Source: a virus. From it: 20,067 nt of DNA. Made by a program: the position numbers and the translations under genes. Where the stretch lies: positions 1 to 20,067 of IMG/VR virus record IMGVR_UViG_3300019458_000619. The stretch is one strand, 5' to 3'. This document shows positions 2,239 through 12,900 of the stretch, piece after piece. The notes below the pieces were generated by a model. That model was given only the letters and a program-made list of their open reading frames with translations. It was not told the origin of the DNA and did not search any database. The first letter of the stretch is position 1; every line of letters starts with the position of its first letter.

Positions 2239-5200
2239 ATGGACGATCCGAGACCGGGCAGCAAGCTCGCGCCCGAACCATCTGCCTTGGGCGCGGGCTG
2301 GAGCCTGTCGCAGTCGCTCGACGGCGCGCTCCGGCACGCGAAGCCGAAAGAATCGCTGAGCCGGCATCTCGTCGGGTATCGCGTCGCCTTGCCGGAAGCC
2401 GATCAAACGCAGGTGTCCGAGTATTCGCCTGACGATGCGGCGCTGGTCGCGCGTGCGACGCAGGCAGGCGAGGCGGCCTGGGCGCATGAGCGGATCGCGC
2501 TGATCGGGCGCGCGCTCGACGAGGAGGCGCAGCGTCTCGCGGCCGATCCGCAGAAGGCCGGCAAGGTCGCGGAACACCTGGCGCCGCTGATCGAAAAAGC
2601 TTTTGCCGGCGCGCTGGCCGAAGCGCCGGGCGAGCAGGCGCGCGCGATCGTGGGCCGCGAGCAGGAGCCGCTCGAAACCGAGCTGCTGGCGGAGCGCGCG
2701 GTGATGTCGGTTGCGGCCGCGCAGCGCGCCGAGCGCGAGGGGCGTCGCGCCGCGCTGGAAGACGAGCTCGCGATGCTGAAGACGCAGCCGCAGCGCTGGG
2801 CCGCGGCGCACGGACGGCGCGCGCGCTCGATCGACGATCTGCCGTTCGACGGGAAGCGCAAGACGGCGCTCAAGGGCGTGGCCGCGCGGGCGCAGGCGAA
2901 TGCGGCGGCGGAAGGGTTGCTGCAGCAGGACGCGCACTGGCTGCTCGAGGATCTTGACGATCCGGCGTTTGCCGGCGCGCTGGGCAAGGACGATGCGGCG
3001 CGCTGGCGCTCGGAAGCGGAAACGGCGATCGCGCGGCGGGCGGAACGTGTCGCGGCGGAAGGCGCGGAGCGCGCGCAGCTCGCGGCCGCCGACATGCGCG
3101 CGACCTTGAAGCGCTTCAAGGACAAGGACGACGGGCCGTTGCCGCCGCGCGAAAAGATCGTCGCGGCGCTGGGCGTGGACGCAGCGAACGACGTGCTGTC
3201 GGCGACGCTCAAAGGTCGCAAGCATCGCCACGCGATCGGTGCGGCCGCCTTGCTGGCGCCGGCGGACGAGGGCGCCTGGCTCGATGCCGCGCCAGACAAG
3301 GAGACGCGCACGGTTCGCGAGCTCGCGGTCGCGACCAAAGGCGCCGCGGTTGCCGGCAATCCCGGCCGCTGGCTGATGCAGCACAGCGCGACGCTCAAAG
3401 AGCTCGCGAAAGAAGCAACGGACGATCCGGTGAAGCTGCCGCGCCTCGCCGATCACTACGCAGCGCTGCGGAACCAGGTGAGCGGGCGTGCGGCGAATGA
3501 CGCCGATGCCGCCCCCGCAGCAACAGATGCCCCGGCGTCGACCGCCGCTTCGGCAGGCGCAGACTCACCGAGCGACGATGCGCCGTTGCCGGACGAAGTC
3601 GCGGCCGACCTGGTCGAGCAGGTGCTGGCCGGCGAGACGCCGCAGGCGCGGCTCGATTCGCTGACGACGATTCTAGACGGCGCAGCGGACGGCGGCAGCA
3701 CCGATCCCGACGATCGCGCGCGCGCCGATGCGATCGCGCGTCAGCTCGAAACGCTCGGCCTGCCGACCGGCACGGCAACGCGCTGGGCGCAGCTATCCGA
3801 TCCGCAGACGCGCCGCAGCGCGCGCCTCGCGTTGCTCGGCGGGTTCGCAAAGCAAATCGCGGAGGAAGGAAAGATCCTCAGCGGGGAAAGCGAGGAGTCG
3901 GAGATCGTCGGCGGGGAAGGCGAGGAGCCGGAGATCGTCGGCGGGGAAGGCGGCGACACGATTTCAATCGAAGACCTAGGACCGATTTTCTTTCCGCGCG
4001 GGATGACCAGCGACCTATACAAGCGACTCATTCGCGCTCGTGTCGATCAGCTTGTTAAAACGGGCGACGTTTCGCGTGAGGAAGCGGATCGGTTTCTTGC
4101 GGATGAGGGGCTCACGGCCCTTACGGAAATCGAGCTACCGGAAGAAACAGCAACGCAACTCTACAGCGCCGACAACAATGAAGTGGTTGCGGCGCTGTCA
4201 GAGTTCGCCGATGTCGTTCTCTTGGGCGCCGAAAAGCTAGCGGAACTCGAAGAAAAGTACGGCTGGCTGGCCGAAGTTGCGCTGCGGGGCGCTCAGCTAA
4301 TAGTTGGCGGACCCTTCAAAACGATTGTCAGCATCATTGTAGATCGGGGAATCGATGCGGTTCTAAATGAGTACGGCGAGGAAGCATTTGACCGCGCCAT
4401 AACGTTTGTTGGCGATCAGTTTACAAACATCTTCAGTATCAACAGTGAAGATGCACAAAAGATTGGCGCCGCTACAATCTTTGGCCTTCTGGCTGTTACC
4501 GGCGTCGCTTCCGGTGCGGTCGACACGTTCCGGTTCGCTCGACACATCGTTCGGCGGTTTCGAAATCAATTGAGATGGGCAGCCAATCGTCCATCACTTG
4601 AGAATGAACCGTTCTATAGGGATCGTCCCGAAACGCGTGACGCGGTCGAGGTCTGGACCAGTAAGCACGGCACCGAGCGGTACACCGTAACGCTCACGAA
4701 GTTCATGGAAAGCCGTGCCTTTCGACACTTGAGTCGACGTGAGAAGGCCTGGTTAATCGGAATGTTTCGTCAGGATGTGCTTCCACGTACGTCTGAGAGT
4801 TACGCACAACGTCTGATCGGTCCGCTCGCAGAACGAGAGGATTTCAAGATGGCTGTACACTATGTAGTCCAGCTTCCAAATGGAAAGAGTACTAAGCCGG
4901 ACCTCGTATTGTTTGCGAGTAGCGCGGATCCGGACGCACTGCATCGATTGGATCCGTTTTTGAAGAGTGTGGCAGAGGGTTTTACGGCTGTTGTTGAAGC
5001 CAAGGGTCCACTCCAACGGCTAACAAGCAACCAGTTCTATCTCCGTCGTGCCATGGACGAAATTGGGCGTAGCGATAGCTTTGAAGTTGGGGATTTGCCG
5101 ATCAGCGAATATCCACCTGACCTCCTAAGGGAGTCTGTGGATGTGATTCTTCAGCGGTATCCGGATGTGAAGCCGGCGCACGCTTACCTCCTGGTCGACG

Positions 5201-5319
5201 AACTACGCAAGCATTTCAATCCGAAATTGCCGGTATGGCAACTACTAGCGGCCACGTCTGGAATTCTTGGTTTAATTGCAGTTATTGGCGGCGATCAAAC
5301 CAGTGATTCGAAGCAGTAA
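2239..5319 (+). CDS. Large modular toxin 1: helical N-module, hydrophobic middle domain, PD-(D/E)xK nuclease C-terminus
   Basis: 1026 residues; the ATG is preceded by GAGGTG at 2226-2231. Residues 16-420 are Ala/Glu/Arg-rich, predicted almost wholly helical, and resemble podoviral internal virion or ejection proteins in style without matching a family I recognise. Residues 420-545 form a low-complexity Ala/Asp linker plus a second helical block. Residues 549-571 are an acidic repeat linker. From about 575 the sequence diverges from its paralogue and GC falls. Hydrophobic Gly-rich stretches at about 676-710 and 742-760 look like a membrane-interacting pre-toxin domain. Residues 870-945 carry a PD-(D/E)xK signature: D888 in a KPDLVLF strand, E920-A-K922 in a VVEAKG strand, then a conserved Q after LTSN. 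A hydrophobic segment near 1000-1017 ends the protein. A DNA-cleaving toxin is likely. Delivery by the virion is inferred only from gene position. Confidence 0.72.
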   Translation: MDDPRPGSKLAPEPSALGAGWSLSQSLDGALRHAKPKESLSRHLVGYRVALPEADQTQVSEYSPDDAALVARATQAGEAAWAHERIALIGRALDEEAQRLAADPQKAGKVAEHLAPLIEKAFAGALAEAPGEQARAIVGREQEPLETELLAERAVMSVAAAQRAEREGRRAALEDELAMLKTQPQRWAAAHGRRARSIDDLPFDGKRKTALKGVAARAQANAAAEGLLQQDAHWLLEDLDDPAFAGALGKDDAARWRSEAETAIARRAERVAAEGAERAQLAAADMRATLKRFKDKDDGPLPPREKIVAALGVDAANDVLSATLKGRKHRHAIGAAALLAPADEGAWLDAAPDKETRTVRELAVATKGAAVAGNPGRWLMQHSATLKELAKEATDDPVKLPRLADHYAALRNQVSGRAANDADAAPAATDAPASTAASAGADSPSDDAPLPDEVAADLVEQVLAGETPQARLDSLTTILDGAADGGSTDPDDRARADAIARQLETLGLPTGTATRWAQLSDPQTRRSARLALLGGFAKQIAEEGKILSGESEESEIVGGEGEEPEIVGGEGGDTISIEDLGPIFFPRGMTSDLYKRLIRARVDQLVKTGDVSREEADRFLADEGLTALTEIELPEETATQLYSADNNEVVAALSEFADVVLLGAEKLAELEEKYGWLAEVALRGAQLIVGGPFKTIVSIIVDRGIDAVLNEYGEEAFDRAITFVGDQFTNIFSINSEDAQKIGAATIFGLLAVTGVASGAVDTFRFARHIVRRFRNQLRWAANRPSLENEPFYRDRPETRDAVEVWTSKHGTERYTVTLTKFMESRAFRHLSRREKAWLIGMFRQDVLPRTSESYAQRLIGPLAEREDFKMAVHYVVQLPNGKSTKPDLVLFASSADPDALHRLDPFLKSVAEGFTAVVEAKGPLQRLTSNQFYLRRAMDEIGRSDSFEVGDLPISEYPPDLLRESVDVILQRYPDVKPAHAYLLVDELRKHFNPKLPVWQLLAATSGILGLIAVIGGDQTSDSKQ
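2290..3975. repeat. Large direct repeat, copy 1 (toxin N-module)
   Basis: This stretch encodes residues about 18-579 of toxin 1 and repeats at 6653-8285. The start aligns at the GAGWSLSQSLD motif in both copies (W at 2299 and at 6662). At protein level the copies are nearly collinear apart from the Ala/Asp-rich linker around 3490-3590, which differs. Nucleotide identity is uneven: a 175-nt block at 3274-3448 has only 5 differences from 7640-7814, whereas the preceding 90 nt differ at about one base in five. Confidence 0.9.
3883..3951 (+). repeat. 30-nt tandem repeat encoding an acidic linker
   Basis: Two full 30-nt units (3883-3912 and 3913-3942) plus a partial third encode GE(S/G)EE(S/P)EIVG twice and then GEG. 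Toxin 2 has only one equivalent unit near 8221-8255, so the number of units varies between paralogues. The repeat marks the boundary between the conserved N-module and the variable C-terminal part. An acidic, flexible hinge or a cleavage/processing site are both possible roles. Confidence 0.8.
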
Positions 5320-6024: not shown

Positions 6025-6567
6025 ATGTACCTGCACAATTTTGCAATCTTCGTGAAGAGCAGCGATCCCGCAAATCCAATGATCGAGATTCTGGGAGATC
6101 CCGAGTATCAGAACGACTACGCGCCCGTGGTTGGCGCGCCGGGGGTTGACGGGTTGAGCGACACGGCGTTGGGCAATCTGTTCCATGCCATGTCGTATTT
6201 CATGGGGGAGCCGCTGCCGTGGGCGGTTACGCATGGGCTTGAGGGCCTGTGCATCGTAAATGACTACAATATGGATGCCTTGAATGGCATAGTGCCGATT
6301 GACGCGACATCTCTGTTTTGGCGCGACGCGATTCACGTTCGAACTGCCTCGGCGACGCTCACAGCTGGACGTCGACTGCAGAGTCTGTTCGGCGAGCGGA
6401 ATCCGGAGATCGTTGCCAAGGTGGCCGAATGCCCCAAAGCAAGCGGACAAACGACAGAGGACCAACTCATCGAACTGGCCGAACAACTCGAGTTCTTGCT
6501 CCGACATCTCGAATGGATCGTCGAGAACCGTTCCTGGCCGGTCGTCTCCATGTGTTTTTACGACTAG
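6025..6567 (+). CDS. Putative immunity protein B (orphan or second immunity)
   Basis: 180 residues, exactly the length of immunity C (9709-10251) and about two-thirds identical to it by eye, with near-identical stretches such as PEYQNDYAPVVGAPG and the C-terminal PVVSMCFYD. It carries the family core GLEGLCIVN at residues 72-80. The start is supported by an AAAGG ribosome binding site 7 nt upstream, matching that of immunity C. It has no toxin directly upstream that immunity A does not already serve, so it may be an orphan immunity left by loss or exchange of a toxin, or it may protect against a competitor's variant. It is followed after 64 nt by the start of toxin 2. Confidence 0.6.
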   Translation: MYLHNFAIFVKSSDPANPMIEILGDPEYQNDYAPVVGAPGVDGLSDTALGNLFHAMSYFMGEPLPWAVTHGLEGLCIVNDYNMDALNGIVPIDATSLFWRDAIHVRTASATLTAGRRLQSLFGERNPEIVAKVAECPKASGQTTEDQLIELAEQLEFLLRHLEWIVENRSWPVVSMCFYD

Positions 6568-6631: not shown

Positions 6632-9079
6632 ATGTCCGATCCTATCGGAGTCGGCGCGGGCTGGAGCCTGTCGCAGTCGCTCGACGGCGCCCTGCGACGC
6701 GCGAAGCCGAAGGAGTCGCTGAGCCGGCACCTGGTCGGCCATCGGGTCGCGCTGCCGGCAGCCGAACAGGGTCACGAGTCCGATCGCTCGCCGGCGGATA
6801 CGGCATTGGGCGCGCGTGCGGCGCAATCGGGCGAGGCGGCCTGGGCGCATGAGCGGGTTGCGCTGATCGGGCGCGCGCTCGATGCGGAGGCGCAGCGTCT
6901 CGCCGCCGATCCGCAGAAGGCCGGCAGGGTTGCCGAGCATCTGGCGCCGCTGATCGAGCAGGCGTTTGCCGGTGCGCTCGCCGAAGCGCCGGGCGAGCAG
7001 GCGCGCGCGATCGTGGACCGCGAGCAGGAGCCGCTCGAGACCGAACTGCTCGCCGAGCGCGCGGTGATGTCGGTCGCGGCCACGCAGCGTGCCGAGCGCG
7101 AAGGCCGCCGCGCGGCGCTCGCCGACGAGCTCGCGATGCTGAAGACGCAGCCGCAGCGCTGGGCCGCTTCGCATGCGCGACGGGGTCGCGCGATCGGCGA
7201 TCTGCCGCTCGACGAGAAGCGCAAGACGGCGCTCAAGGGTGTAACTGCGCGGGCGCAGGCGAACGCGGTGGCGGAAGGCTTGCTGCAGCAGGACGCCACC
7301 TGGCTGCTCGAGGATCTCGACGATCCGGATTTTACGGCCGCGCTGGGCAAAGACGATGCAGCGCGATGGCGGTCGGAAGCCGAAGCGGCGGTTGCGCGGC
7401 GGGCCGAGCGGATCGCGGCGGAGAGCGCCGAGCGCGCGCAGCTCGCGGCCTCCGACATGCGTGCGAGCTTGAAGCGCTTCAAGGACAAGGATGACGGGCC
7501 GTTGCCGCCGCGCGAACAGGTGGTCGCGGCACTTGGAGACGAGGCGGTGGCGGATGCGGTTCTGTCGGCGACGCTGAAGGGTCGCAAGCATCGCTATGCC
7601 ATCGGTGCCGCTGCCTTGCTGGCATCAGTGGACGAAGGTGCCTGGCTCGATGCCGCGCCAGACAAGGAGACGCGCACGACCCGCGAGCTCGCGGTCGCGA
7701 CCAAACGCGCCGCGGTTGCCGGCAATCCCGGCCGCTGGCTGATGCAGCACAGCGCGACGCTCAAAGAGCTCGCGAAAGAAGCAACGGACGATCCGGCGAA
7801 GCTGCCGCGCCTCGTCGACCAGTATGCCGCACTGCGAAGCCAAGTCGGCGGGCGGAGCGGCGAGGCCGAGGATGGTACCAACATCCGGACAAAACCCAAT
7901 GTCGGTAGCGCAACCGATACGCCGTTGCCCGACGCCGTTGCCGCCGATCTGGTCGAGCAGGTGCTGGCCGGCGAGACGCCGCAGGCACGGCTCGATTCGC
8001 TGATCGAGACTCTCGATGGCGCAGCGGACGGCGGCAGCACCGATGGTGGCGATCGCGCGCGTGCCGATGCGATCGCACGCCAGCTCGAAACGCTCGGCCT
8101 GCCGGAAGGAACGGCCACGCGATGGGCACAGCTATCCGAACAGCAGACGCGCCGCAGCGCGCGACTCGGGCTGCTCGGCGGCTTCGCCAAGCAGATCGCG
8201 GAAGAAGAAAAGATCCTCAGCGGCGAGGGCGAGGAGCCGGAGATCGTCGGCGAGGAAGGCGACGACACGATCTCGCTCGGCGACATCGAAACCGGTGCCT
8301 TTGCGGACCAGCACCGTTTCGAGCAGCTCCGGCAGCAAGTTCAGGCACTCGTCGCAAGTGGTGCCATTTCAGAGGAAACGGCCCAGCGGTTTCTTGCGGA
8401 CGCCCGACTCAACGGTCTGGCCTCCGTCGAACTTCCGGCCGAGGCGATCGAAGCCCTGGCCTCGGGCGACAACGCCGCGATCGTCGACACCCTTTCCGGC
8501 ATTGCCGACGTCGTGCTGGGTGCAGCGGCCAAGTTTGCCGAACTCGAAGAAGAGTACGGCTGGCTGGCAACGGCCACCTTCTATGGCGTTCAAGCCCTGA
8601 TCGGCGGTCCGGCAAAGGCCATCGTTGGATTTCTCATCGACAAGGGCTTCGAAAAAATTCTCGGTGACGAAGTCGCCGAGGGCATGCAGGCCGGAATCGA
8701 TGTCGGCTCGGCGATCCTTCAAAAAGAACTGGGAATAGATGACAAGCTGACGGCCGATCGAATTTCGAGCGCCGGCATCCTCCTGATTGCAACGCTCGCC
8801 GGCGGGACGGGCACCGCGCTTCGATTGATGAGGCATGTCGGACGTTCGGTCGTGGAGCGTCTGCGAGGTGGAACGGGTGCACTCGCGGACGTGCCCATGT
8901 TCGACAACAAGCCGCTCACGAGACGCTTCCTTGAACGGGCCATGGCGAAAAAGGCGGATGAAACAAACCTGCAATACATGGACAGGCTTCTATCGATGCC
9001 ACAGTTTCGCCACTGGTCGCCAGATGCGAAAAGAGAGCTTGGCGGGTTCTTCAGCACACAGATATTGGTCGCGCACTAG
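6632..9079 (+). CDS. Large modular toxin 2, N-module and middle domain; nuclease domain frameshifted away
   Basis: 815 residues, ATG preceded by AGGGGG at 6621-6626. Residues 8-545 align almost collinearly with toxin 1 (GAGWSLSQSLDGAL start, the same helical blocks, one acidic repeat unit EGEEPEIVG). From about 547 it diverges but keeps the same architecture: an EEYGWLA stretch at W644, Gly-rich hydrophobic segments near 648-670 and 711-726, and a QFRHWSPDAKRELGGFF block corresponding to AFRHLSRREKAWLIGMF in toxin 1. The reading frame ends shortly after that block. The next frame continues with the rest of a nuclease domain, so this product would lack its catalytic part. As annotated it is a truncated toxin; a mutation, phase-variable slippage at the CACACA run near 9053-9059, or an assembly error could each explain it. 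Confidence 0.75.
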   Translation: MSDPIGVGAGWSLSQSLDGALRRAKPKESLSRHLVGHRVALPAAEQGHESDRSPADTALGARAAQSGEAAWAHERVALIGRALDAEAQRLAADPQKAGRVAEHLAPLIEQAFAGALAEAPGEQARAIVDREQEPLETELLAERAVMSVAATQRAEREGRRAALADELAMLKTQPQRWAASHARRGRAIGDLPLDEKRKTALKGVTARAQANAVAEGLLQQDATWLLEDLDDPDFTAALGKDDAARWRSEAEAAVARRAERIAAESAERAQLAASDMRASLKRFKDKDDGPLPPREQVVAALGDEAVADAVLSATLKGRKHRYAIGAAALLASVDEGAWLDAAPDKETRTTRELAVATKRAAVAGNPGRWLMQHSATLKELAKEATDDPAKLPRLVDQYAALRSQVGGRSGEAEDGTNIRTKPNVGSATDTPLPDAVAADLVEQVLAGETPQARLDSLIETLDGAADGGSTDGGDRARADAIARQLETLGLPEGTATRWAQLSEQQTRRSARLGLLGGFAKQIAEEEKILSGEGEEPEIVGEEGDDTISLGDIETGAFADQHRFEQLRQQVQALVASGAISEETAQRFLADARLNGLASVELPAEAIEALASGDNAAIVDTLSGIADVVLGAAAKFAELEEEYGWLATATFYGVQALIGGPAKAIVGFLIDKGFEKILGDEVAEGMQAGIDVGSAILQKELGIDDKLTADRISSAGILLIATLAGGTGTALRLMRHVGRSVVERLRGGTGALADVPMFDNKPLTRRFLERAMAKKADETNLQYMDRLLSMPQFRHWSPDAKRELGGFFSTQILVAH
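6653..8285. repeat. Large direct repeat, copy 2 (toxin N-module)
   Basis: Second copy of the repeat at 2290-3975. The two copies in direct orientation, 4.4 kb apart, could recombine to delete immunity A, immunity B and the toxin 1 tip, or to exchange tips. The third, truncated copy at 10331-10490 shares only the first approximately 150 nt. Confidence 0.9.
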
Positions 9080-9183: not shown

Positions 9184-9465
9184 ATGGACTTGGTGCTCGT
9201 CGATGGAACGCCAGACGCTAGTGTTCTGAATGCAATAACCAAGAATTTCTATGAGTATGCAAAAAAGAATGAAGCGGTCCTTCTGGAAGTCAAGACGGGT
9301 GGCGGTAAACTATCACCGAACCAGGGCGCAATCTTCCGCAAGTTGGAAGACGAGGGGCTAGGCGACTACGCCTTGCTCGCCAGTTTTCCTGCGCGGGAAC
9401 TTCCAGTCGATGCAATCATCAAGGCGATGGCCGAGCAAAGATCGGTCGCGGCTACAATCACATAA
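9184..9465 (+). CDS. PD-(D/E)xK nuclease fragment of toxin 2
   Basis: 93 residues from the first ATG, but the coding frame is open further upstream and probably belongs to the toxin 2 gene. It shows a clear PD-(D/E)xK core: D in KMDLVLVDG (codon 9187), E and K in LLEVKTGGG (codons 9286 and 9292), followed by KLSPNQ with the conserved Gln. The spacing of 32 residues between D and E is close to the 31 in toxin 1. Starting at 9184 would drop the first helix (ALEIHFRDEL, with a typical helix-1 Glu), so an independent active enzyme is doubtful. No ribosome binding site of note precedes 9184. It is best read as the displaced toxin tip. Confidence 0.6.
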   Translation: MDLVLVDGTPDASVLNAITKNFYEYAKKNEAVLLEVKTGGGKLSPNQGAIFRKLEDEGLGDYALLASFPARELPVDAIIKAMAEQRSVAATIT

Positions 9466-9609: not shown

Positions 9610-9670
9610 TTGACAATTGAGTAAGGTGGTATGCGGGGGCTTTGACATCTCGGTGTCGGAGCGATAAAGG
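9610..9670 (+). promoter_or_regulatory. Candidate promoter region for immunity gene C
   Basis: Two perfect TTGACA hexamers (9610-9615 and 9642-9647) lie in the 109-nt gap upstream of immunity C. The second is followed after 17 nt by TAAAGG (9665-9670), a poor -10 match (3 of 6). Alphaproteobacterial promoters often show a strong -35 with a weak -10, so a private promoter is plausible but not shown. Confidence 0.3.
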
Positions 9671-9708
9671 TGAATCATGAATCACACGGAACAACTAAAA
9701 GGTGTCTC

Positions 9709-10251
9709 GTGTATTTGCATCACTTCGCGATCTTTGTGAAGAGCGGCGATCCGGCAAAACCCCAAATCGAGATTCTCGACAATCCCGAGTATCAAAATGA
9801 CGATGCGCCTGTCGTTGGCGCGCCAGGAATCGATGGGTTGAGCGATACGGCCTTGGGCAACTTGTTCTTCAGTATGTCGTACGCGCTGGGTGAACCCCAG
9901 CCTTGGGCCGTTACGCTTGGACTTGAAGGTCTGTGCATTGTGAACTGTTACACTATAGACGCGTTGGCGGGTGAGCCGCCCAGCAGCGTAACCTCTGCAT
10001 TTTGGCAGGACTCTGTTCACATCCGGTCTGCTGCAGAAGTAGTGACGTCTGGACGCCGCTTGCAGACGTTGTTCAACGCGCGAAATCCAGAGGTCGTTTC
10101 AAAGGTTGCAGAACGCTGCTTGCTCAGCCAACAGACCACCGAAGACGCGATCATCGAATTGTCCGAGCAGCTCGATCTCATGATTCGACATTTGGAATGG
10201 GTGAACGAGAATCGTGGGTTTCCTGTTGTCTCGATGTGCTTTTACGATTGA
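9709..10251 (+). CDS. Putative immunity protein C for toxin 2
   Basis: 180 residues from GTG at 9709. This start is preferred over the more upstream in-frame GTG at 9670 because it gives the same length and N-terminus (YLHHFAIFVKSGDP) as immunity B and has the same AAAGG ribosome binding site 7 nt upstream. It carries the family core GLEGLCIVN and the C-terminal PVVSMCFYD. It is cytoplasmic by appearance. It lies directly after the toxin 2 tip and before the truncated third N-module. Although the toxin 2 reading frame is broken, this gene is intact, which would make sense if it still protects against related phages or a sister toxin. Immunity function is inferred from context. Confidence 0.62.
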   Translation: MYLHHFAIFVKSGDPAKPQIEILDNPEYQNDDAPVVGAPGIDGLSDTALGNLFFSMSYALGEPQPWAVTLGLEGLCIVNCYTIDALAGEPPSSVTSAFWQDSVHIRSAAEVVTSGRRLQTLFNARNPEVVSKVAERCLLSQQTTEDAIIELSEQLDLMIRHLEWVNENRGFPVVSMCFYD

Positions 10252-10330
10252 GACGTACGCCAGGAATCACGCGGGAGAGTATTTCTCGAATCGGCCACTT
10301 GTCGTCTGTAAGATTGTTGCGGAGGCCCGC

Positions 10331-10528
10331 ATGTCCGATCCTATCGGAGTCGGCGCGGGCTGGAGCCTGTCGCAATCGCTCGACGTTGCGCTGCGACGCG
10401 CGAAGCCGAAGGAATCGCTAAGCCGGCACCTGGTCGGGCATCACGTCGCGTTGCCGGCGGTCAAAGAATCCAACCGCTCGCCCGACGATACGATAACCAC
10501 ACAGAAACACTCTCGGGAGTCAGCATGA
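10331..10528 (+). CDS. Truncated third copy of the toxin N-module (stub)
   Basis: 65 residues, ATG preceded by GGAGG at 10321-10325. The first 44 nt are identical to the start of toxin 2, and the first 132 nt differ at about 12 positions. The homology (WSLSQSLDVALRRAKPKESL through about residue 53) then stops and the frame runs into unrelated sequence, ending with TGA overlapping the scaffold ATG (ATGA). It may be only a recombination scar, a landing site for new toxin cassettes, or a leader peptide coupling translation to the scaffold gene. Confidence 0.65.
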   Translation: MSDPIGVGAGWSLSQSLDVALRRAKPKESLSRHLVGHHVALPAVKESNRSPDDTITTQKHSRESA

Positions 10529-11480: not shown

Positions 11481-11759
11481 ATGAGCGGACGACACAGACG
11501 ACCGCAGCGCGGCGTGCCACCGGATGGGCACGCATCGGCGGCTTCACATGACCTGACGGCGCGCGATGAAGTGCGCGGCGACGAGGCGTTGGCGGGCAAG
11601 GCGGATCGCGCGATCCGGCTCGGCTGTCTGCGCGCCGCCATCGAGCTGCGCAGCCCCGGCAGTGCCTTGGGCGATCTGCTCGTGACGGCGGCCGCGTTCT
11701 ACGAATTCGTCACCGGCGCGCGCGACGATGCGCCCAGCCGGGATCCCTCATCTAACTGA
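11481..11759 (+). CDS. Small phage protein of unknown function
   Basis: 92 residues, starting 5 nt after the scaffold stop, with a GGAG/GGGG ribosome binding site overlapping that stop. The N-terminal 40 residues are basic and probably disordered (MSGRHRRPQRG...). Residues 45-80 form an amphipathic helical pair (DRAIRLGCLRAAIELRS, then LGDLLVTAAAFYEFVTG). I do not recognise the family. Its place between scaffold and capsid genes suggests a head-assembly accessory. Confidence 0.7.
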   Translation: MSGRHRRPQRGVPPDGHASAASHDLTARDEVRGDEALAGKADRAIRLGCLRAAIELRSPGSALGDLLVTAAAFYEFVTGARDDAPSRDPSSN

Positions 11760-11986
11760 TTTCCGGGCAACCGTCTTCGGCAATCCGACGGCGGTCCGGC
11801 TGACACGCGGGAAAGACCGCCGCCCACGGCCCCGTTACGGCCGAGGACGGGTCCGTGCGTGACTTTGTTTGACCCATGTCCGGCAGCCGCCACACCAATC
11901 CTGCCGGCCAAGGGTCGAAGAGGCTCAATTCACGGGCAACCCATCCGTCCCCACGCAACCACAATCGCAACGGAGGACGGACAGAG
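11760..11986 (+). promoter_or_regulatory. Structured leader upstream of the major capsid gene
   Basis: A 227-nt gap with no convincing gene. It contains an 8-bp perfect inverted repeat CGGCGGTC/GACCGCCG (11789-11796 and 11815-11822, 18-nt loop), the loop-conserved hairpin at 11880-11907, and the capsid ribosome binding site GGAGG at 11972-11976. There is no T-tract after either hairpin, so these are not intrinsic terminators. A role in mRNA processing, stability or translation of the most abundant virion protein is plausible. I saw no good promoter. Confidence 0.5.
11880..11907 (+). promoter_or_regulatory. Hairpin with conserved loop, upstream partner
   Basis: CCGGCAG pairs with CTGCCGG around the 14-nt loop CCGCCACACCAATC (11887-11900). 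The loop differs at only 2 of 14 positions from that of the terminator hairpin after the capsid gene. The outer base pairs of the two hairpins differ but remain paired. No T-tract follows. Confidence 0.6.
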
Positions 11987-12847
11987 ATGTCCTTTCAAAT
12001 CACCACCTGGCACACGCAGCAATACTCGTCTGCGGTGCAGATGCTGGTCCAGCAAAAGGGTTCGCGTCTGCGCGATTGCGTGCGCGTCGAATCCGTGACC
12101 GGCGACACGGCCTATTTCGACCAGGTCGGTGCCGGCACGGCTGTCAAGCGCGGCGCGCGCCATGCCGACACGCCCTTCACCGAAACGCCGCACAGCCGGC
12201 GCCAGGTGACGCTGGAGGATTACGAGTATTCGGACCTGATCGACAAGCAGGACCGCGTTCGCACCATCGCCGATCCGACCAGTTTCTATGCGCAGGCGGC
12301 GGCAAGTGCGATGGGCCGCGCAATGGACGACGTGATCATCGGCCAGGCGCTCGGCTCCGCGAAGACCGGCAAGACCGGTGCGACTTCGGTGACGCTGCCC
12401 ATCGGGCAGAAGATCGTCAAGAACGCGTCCGGGCTCACTCTGGCGAAACTGCTGAACGCCAAGGAAATCCTCGATGCGGCCGAGAACGATCCGGATGAGG
12501 AGCGCTACCTCATCTGCCCCGCCAAGGATGTCACGGTGCTGCTCAACACCACCGAGGTGAAGAGCGCCGACTACAATACCGTGCGCGCGCTGGTCGCGGG
12601 ACAAATCGACACGTTCCTCGGCTTCCGCTTCATCCGCTCGCAGCGACTGACGTTGGATTCGAGCGGCGACCGTCAGTGCTTCGCCTGGCGCAAGTCGGGC
12701 CTGCTGCTGGCGGTCGGGCAGGCGCCGACGGCCCGAATCTCCGAGCGCGACGACAAATCTTACTCGACGCAGGTCTATTACTGCATGTCGATCGGTGCCG
12801 TGCGCATGGAGGAAGAAGCGGTCGTCGAGATCGCGACGACTCCCTAA
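11987..12847 (+). CDS. Major capsid protein
   Basis: 286 residues starting MSFQITTWHTQQYSSAVQ. It matches in style the podoviral phage capsid protein family with an HK97-type fold: the N-terminal ITTWHTQQYSSAVQMLVQQKGSRLRDCV segment, a TPHSRRQVTLEDYEYSDLID stretch, and the conserved C-terminal half with YLICPAKD, then a FLGFRFIRSQRL strand and a YSTQVYYCMSIGAVRMEE ending. I chose ATG 11987, with GGAGG 10 nt upstream. An in-frame ATG at 11876 would add 37 Pro/Asn/Arg-rich residues, lacks a ribosome binding site and would run through a hairpin. The gene is isolated by a structured leader and a strong terminator, consistent with high and separately tuned expression. Confidence 0.9.
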   Translation: MSFQITTWHTQQYSSAVQMLVQQKGSRLRDCVRVESVTGDTAYFDQVGAGTAVKRGARHADTPFTETPHSRRQVTLEDYEYSDLIDKQDRVRTIADPTSFYAQAAASAMGRAMDDVIIGQALGSAKTGKTGATSVTLPIGQKIVKNASGLTLAKLLNAKEILDAAENDPDEERYLICPAKDVTVLLNTTEVKSADYNTVRALVAGQIDTFLGFRFIRSQRLTLDSSGDRQCFAWRKSGLLLAVGQAPTARISERDDKSYSTQVYYCMSIGAVRMEEEAVVEIATTP

Positions 12848-12855
12848 GTGAAACG

Positions 12856-12900
12856 CGCGCGGGCAGCCGCCACGCCAACCCTGCCCGCGCGAGTTTTTTT
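12856..12900 (+). terminator. Strong intrinsic terminator after the capsid gene
   Basis: An 11-bp perfect stem CGCGCGGGCAG/CTGCCCGCGCG (12856-12866 and 12881-12891) with the 14-nt loop CCGCCACGCCAACC is followed by GAG and seven T residues (12894-12900). It starts 9 nt past the capsid stop. Such terminators just after a capsid gene are typical of T7-like phages, where they limit read-through and raise capsid yield. Confidence 0.9.

Follow-up and report, generated by a model that had tools for sequence, protein, structure and literature searches.

Two hairpins with a common loop flank a major capsid gene

The window, a 20-kb phage contig from IMG/VR (20,067 nt), carries HTVC010P-type genes for portal, scaffold/assembly, capsid and tail, as identified with PHROGs. 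Its major capsid gene (coding sequence 11987-12847, + strand) matches the major head protein family PHROG 3437 (E 3e-88), in agreement with the assignment in the preliminary description, and the best cultured match of its product is a Pelagibacter phage capsid (61% identical). This gene lies between two hairpins on the same strand. The upstream hairpin (11880-11907, +), 79 nt 5' of the capsid gene, consists of a 7-bp stem (CCGGCAG at 11880-11886 and CTGCCGG at 11901-11907) and the 14-nt loop CCGCCACACCAATC (11887-11900), while the downstream hairpin (12856-12891, +), which begins 8 nt past the capsid stop codon, has an 11-bp stem (CGCGCGGGCAG at 12856-12866 and CTGCCCGCGCG at 12881-12891) and the 14-nt loop CCGCCACGCCAACC (12867-12880). 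Sequence inspection and folding placed both hairpins where they had been described and with the structures claimed, and the two loops are identical at 12 of 14 positions, as had been reported. The covariance model R1 matched the upstream hairpin with 33.6 bits and the downstream hairpin with 54.2 bits, the latter being one of the sequences from which R1 was built. The window has two occurrences of a 22-nt core, GCAGCCGCCACRCCAAYCCTGC, which appeared in 0 of 100 dinucleotide-preserving shuffles of the window with up to 3 mismatches allowed.

The preliminary description had also claimed compensatory change in the outer stem. This holds for the outer pairs in the window; the inner GCAG/CTGC is the same in both copies, so compensatory change within the window is limited to the outer pairs, and it is among relatives that nearly every stem pair changes. 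The upstream hairpin lacks a T-tract, as noted before. The downstream hairpin is followed by AG and then by seven T (12894-12900, +), and it could therefore also serve as an intrinsic terminator.

Elsewhere in the window, the interval between the portal and scaffold genes holds tandem copies of a large protein, a small ORF and an N-terminal remnant (2239-5319, 6632-9079, 9184-9465 and 10214-10528). The tandem proteins share 65% identity over 839 aa and diverge at their C-termini; the first has a weak VRR-nuclease match at its C-terminus (E 0.014), a similar weak match is found in the separate small ORF (E 0.001), and the second copy seems to be interrupted close to its C-terminal end. Each large duplicated gene is followed by one of two small proteins that are 69% identical (6025-6567 and 9670-10251) and that have no Pfam match. 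The arrangement looks like a polymorphic toxin locus embedded in the late region of a phage, and the two small proteins look like immunity partners.

The loop is conserved after the capsid gene of relatives

Relatives of the window were gathered by capsid protein alone, without use of the loop sequence in selection, which yielded 27 loci. In the window and nine of these (L021-L029), the strongest hairpin within 130 nt past the capsid stop has the loop CCGCC-N1-3-CCAACC in 10 of 10 cases, and its stems of 11-20 bp are fully paired and largely unrelated in sequence. The preliminary description had made its reading depend on whether relatives conserve the loop; here, the loop is kept at the same position while the stems around it are unrelated. 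Ten further loci of this set (L014-L020 and L030-L032) have no strong hairpin (at least 10 bp) after the capsid gene. The element is thus optional, and any strong hairpin that does occur here carries the loop CCGCC-N1-3-CCAACC. In HTVC010P and cultured pelagiphages that share this capsid family, the gap after the capsid gene is 12 nt and holds no hairpin, which indicates that capsid expression does not generally require the hairpin.

The upstream hairpin caps a structured capsid leader

An alignment and consensus fold of nine relatives, together with single-sequence folding, revealed a conserved structured leader immediately upstream of the capsid gene (11759-11986, +). This leader of ~180-250 nt precedes the capsid gene in L014, L021-L028 and the window, shares the fixed blocks CCGG..AACCG, CGG.CCGG.TGAC, GG..A.AG and GGCAACC, and has no Rfam match; it may itself be an RNA that regulates the capsid gene in cis. 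The last domain of the leader, which reads GACGGGT...ACCCATCCGTC in the window and GAGGT...ACCTC in most relatives, has the upstream hairpin as its tip. In the window, an outer helix spanning 11870-11917 encloses this hairpin (-23.7 kcal/mol, z -4.5). The hairpin is gained and lost among relatives, being present in L021, L022, L026 and L027 and absent from L014, L024 and L028. Since L024 and L028 show short loops in its place, the hairpin is an optional extension of this domain. It is no relic of the downstream copy, the deflationary reading that the preliminary description had set out; it holds a place at a conserved leader tip and has counterparts in several relatives. In the leader of L023, a short additional hairpin interrupts the loop of the upstream hairpin (CCGC-ACAGTCGGCGGATGCCGACATGCGTCGGCGG-CCAACC) as a nested insertion.

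Stems drift around a fixed loop in an apparently undescribed hairpin family

The window hairpins belong to what is apparently an undescribed family, in which stems are free to change and a 14-base loop is fixed, with members in numerous Alphaproteobacteria and their phages. Members have a GC-rich stem of 8-20 bp and the loop CCGCC-N1-3-CCAACC, 13-14 nt in length. The exact 22-nt core, with two free positions, occurs in 11 viral contigs, and ~50 such hairpins were found in viral contigs other than the window. Matches to looser loop patterns were bimodal, with chance stems of 0-4 bp on one side and long stems of at least 12 bp on the other. Because the loop itself was used to fetch the viral loci, the overall count of loop matches is too high, and the fair measure is the fraction of matches that have stems: a stem of at least 9 bp accompanied 50 of 297 loop matches but none of the 33 matches to the reversed motif and none of the 194 matches to 20 shuffled motifs. 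Across 39 viral copies, 98.5% of stem cells pair, with 192 double changes, and stem covariation is 1.088 versus 0.203 in shuffles; as this set was chosen for its stems, the covariation serves as description and not as a test, and the tests proper are the relatives selected by capsid protein (10/10) and the reversed and shuffled motif controls. In these 39 copies, the constant columns are the loop and the closing G-C pair, and all other stem columns vary.

Searches of Rfam 15 at gathering score gave no hit in the window or over the hairpins of 18 loci, and a permissive search gave only a chance microRNA match (E 3.4). None of six loop strings, on either strand, was found in the literature searched, and we found no description of the family in literature on Acetobacteraceae palindromes, capsid-gene hairpins or conserved loops. 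An RNase III site comprises about two helical turns of double-stranded RNA, and the stems of the family (8-20 bp) are mostly shorter than 20 bp. A general pseudoknot between the loop and the downstream tail found no support: matches of at least 6 nt were present in 11 of 40 hairpins versus 3.9 expected, several of these were head-to-head pairs, and mean match length showed no excess. In head-to-head pairs (L003, L011, L112, L234, L255 and L330), a near-complement of the loop (GGTTGG...GGCGG) lies ~30 nt or less past the hairpin.

The family was also rejected as one of classical intrinsic terminators. If these were ordinary terminators whose loop is conserved by chance, a GC-rich stem after a stop codon would be expected, as would the seven T after the downstream window copy and the CCCCGTTTTTTG after the second copy of L029. 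However, a T-tract follows just 3 of 53 viral copies; termination requires no fixed loop, and terminator loops are short (about 3-8 nt) and without sequence requirement, whereas the loop here is 13-14 nt and constant. Classical terminators do occur in relatives as separate elements, and these have loops of the TTCG/TGCG type and TTTTCTTTT tails. We thus consider ordinary termination a very unlikely account of the family, and the earlier label of "strong terminator" is a plausible one for the downstream copy in the window but does not extend to the other members.

A signal at the DNA level was weighed as well, in the form of an extruded cruciform or of a G-rich template strand in which a quadruplex-capped hairpin blocks polymerases or binds a DNA protein. 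Canonical loops all keep four GG runs on the complementary strand (GGTTGG-N1-3-GGCGG), resembling the thrombin aptamer GGTTGGTGTGGTTGG, and the middle spacer alone is variable. The loop was, however, selected by the search in most sets, the few one-change loop variants affect GG runs as well as spacers and so lend the quadruplex reading no support, and such a signal gives no reason for a position right after stop codons. We regard it as the least probable of the explanations considered.

Hairpins follow stop codons and adjoin capsid genes of unrelated phages

Gene contexts were taken from ORFs that end at the hairpin and from HMM identities, as automatic ORF contexts were unreliable owing to shadow ORFs in GC-rich DNA. 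For 23 of 40 distinct viral hairpins, an ORF of at least 120 aa on the strand carrying the C-rich loop ends within 30 nt upstream (random, ~6%), and for 6 of 40 an antisense ORF ends just past the hairpin (random, ~4%). The distance from stop codon to hairpin is typically 0-14 nt. Near three tail genes (L305, L318 and L331), it is the G-rich loop that lies on the coding strand.

The hairpin lies directly next to the major head gene in phages of five unrelated capsid families (PHROG 3437, 10, 29, 371 and 1357). HMM identities place it directly 3' of this gene in L297, L332, L334 and L361 (PHROG 3437) and in L284 (PHROG 10), and directly 5' of it in L008 (PHROG 29), L249 (PHROG 371) and L405 (PHROG 1357, after a scaffold gene). 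It lies between head protease and decoration protein in L363, and between tail sheath and tail tube in L277. With the capsid lineage of the window set aside, a hairpin stands beside a capsid gene in 4 of ~25 hairpin-bearing contigs, where our own estimate of the random expectation, made post hoc for a 50-gene genome, is ~1. Other viral neighbors are tail, replication and unknown genes, several of which are not abundant virion proteins (e.g., the replication protein in L010). The position in relatives, the capsid adjacency in unrelated phages and the location of the C-rich strand after stop codons support the central part of the earlier proposal, namely that the loop is conserved, around capsid expression, for a reason beyond simple termination.

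Copies are abundant and patchily distributed in host genomes

The exact core matched at least 120 places in GTDB genomes. Among the matches listed, all records assigned to a known group belong to the Alphaproteobacteria; most of these are Acetobacteraceae, with Rhizobiales and Sphingomonadales also represented. A search with model R1 revealed the family in 15 of 40 Acetobacteraceae genomes. The exact 22-nt pattern was present in 3 of 384 other, evenly sampled alphaproteobacterial genomes (~1%) and in 1 of 298 other genomes of the phylum; given this low frequency, the family is patchy in distribution. BLAST of a 31-nt copy gave two matches in Sinorhizobium megaplasmids and no convincing match in cultured phages.

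Host copies can also follow genes closely. In Rubritepida, two long-stem copies stand in tandem between an ABC-transporter gene, which ends 5 nt before them, and rpoN; the laboratory strain Rubritepida flocculans DSM 14296 carries many copies. In L149 and L156, long-stem copies begin 5 nt beyond AhpC/TSA genes. In L048, L052, L077, L144 and L004, hairpins lie ~15 nt past tRNA 3' ends, in the order CCA, T-rich stretch, hairpin; L004 is a phage contig in which ARAGORN found no whole tRNA, and a tRNA-like 3' end precedes its hairpin, as in an attachment site. Many Acetobacteraceae copies are the middle part of a three-hairpin composite, in which a long hairpin and then a T-rich stretch come before the constant-loop hairpin and a third hairpin comes after it, often overlapping the facing gene's stop codon. 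The loop is constant across genera in the middle hairpin only, and intergenic composites of Acetobacteraceae and Devosia (L118, L142, L127, L105, L073 and L057) have ATACC...GGTAT boxes at their ends.

The Acetobacteraceae composites occur in both orientations and in tandem or head-to-head pairs, and they have the look of a dispersed repeat. The main rival to an RNA function is a selfish or mobile palindromic repeat, REP-like but untagged, that inserts in intergenic gaps; its mobilizing enzyme would read the fixed loop as single-stranded DNA, and any effect on mRNA would be secondary. Copy numbers of up to ~70 per Acetobacteraceae genome (both strands, up to 3 mismatches; 0-4 control matches, ~1 beside the highest counts), tandem and head-to-head pairs, the patchy distribution and gain or loss between close relatives (L027 and L028) are all consistent with such an element. 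However, neighboring phage copies mostly have unrelated stem sequences, unlike transposed copies, and the strand bias after stop codons and the repeated placement at capsid genes speak against it as well. Tagged, RAYT-mobilized REPs were rejected. No constant tetranucleotide tag of the GTAG/CGTC kind lies at the stem foot in the 39 copies, whose alignment reaches 12 bp, with the bases below longer stems inspected by eye. The Y1_Tnp domain (PF01797) of the RAYT transposase, which would mobilize REPs, was detected in 0 of 10 copy-rich host genomes, while 5 of 14 control genomes were positive. We therefore judge a selfish repeat to be unlikely, if a more serious contender than termination or a DNA-level signal.

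A recognized loop may bound virion mRNAs

At the level of sequence, the family combines a constant loop, covarying stems, a position after stop codons on the transcribed strand and capsid adjacency in unrelated phages. By analogy with known RNAs, the reading that we hold to be probable, by a modest measure, is that the hairpins are intercistronic or 3'-UTR stem-loops with a recognized loop, which bound or stabilize abundant virion mRNAs. In this model, the stem in the nascent or finished mRNA would mark the 3' boundary of a highly expressed gene, where it would block 3'-5' exonucleases and/or limit read-through, and the capsid segment of the polycistronic late transcript would then accumulate above neighboring segments. 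A putative host factor, either an RNA-binding protein or a small RNA, would recognize the loop and hence keep it constant. The element may have been taken over by phages from their hosts, or it may be common to both. The fixed loop suggests that something in the cell reads it and thereby helps to set the amount of capsid protein.

We hold more tentatively, as a possibility that falls somewhat short of probable, that this is a class-wide RNA signal, in which a dedicated alphaproteobacterial loop-binding factor would read CCGCC-N1-3-CCAACC hairpins at gene ends and phages of several unrelated lineages would each have placed the signal by capsid or tail-sheath genes to set the stoichiometry of virion proteins. 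In most dispersed palindromes and terminators, either the stem is what is kept or the loop sequence is of no consequence. Here, the stems have drifted around a loop that stays frozen in bacteria as well as in unrelated phages. This suggests that a trans-acting factor of Alphaproteobacteria reads RNA 3' ends, for which a hairpin with the frozen loop is a ready-made bait. The placement beside capsid genes in several lineages makes it directly testable how an excess of capsid over minor proteins is obtained from one late transcript.

Comparison with known systems

Like REP elements, the GTAG- or CGTC-tagged palindromes described in PMC3733652, the hairpins are short and dispersed, lie mostly 3' of genes and occur singly, in tandem or head-to-head. 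In the present family, however, the stem varies and the loop is constant, the reverse of REP, with neither a stem-foot tag nor RAYT in the hosts. According to PMC3733652, REP-like families without a tag also exist, and the authors ask whether DNA- or RNA-binding proteins associate with them.

The model of capsid-segment protection rests on a likeness to the puf hairpin of Rhodobacter, which is one of function and not of membership. According to the puf account given in PMC11354728, which cites Klug et al. 1987, ribonucleases and the position of RNA-stabilizing structures set the stoichiometry of pufBALMX proteins, and the hairpin between pufBA and pufLMX is, like those described here, intercistronic in an alphaproteobacterial polycistronic mRNA. 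As in puf, hairpins of the family are found right after a stop codon between co-directional cistrons. The puf hairpin nevertheless is a single locus whose effect on RNA is established, whereas the family ranges over many loci and its effect on RNA is a proposed one. To our knowledge, no fixed loop family is associated with the puf hairpin.

Phages also have late terminators and processing sites near capsid genes, such as Tphi and the RNase III sites of T7. The hairpins of the family likewise adjoin the major capsid gene, where T7-type sites shape late mRNAs; unlike these sites, they carry a family-wide fixed 14-nt loop, usually without a T-tract, that is common to hosts and unrelated phages.
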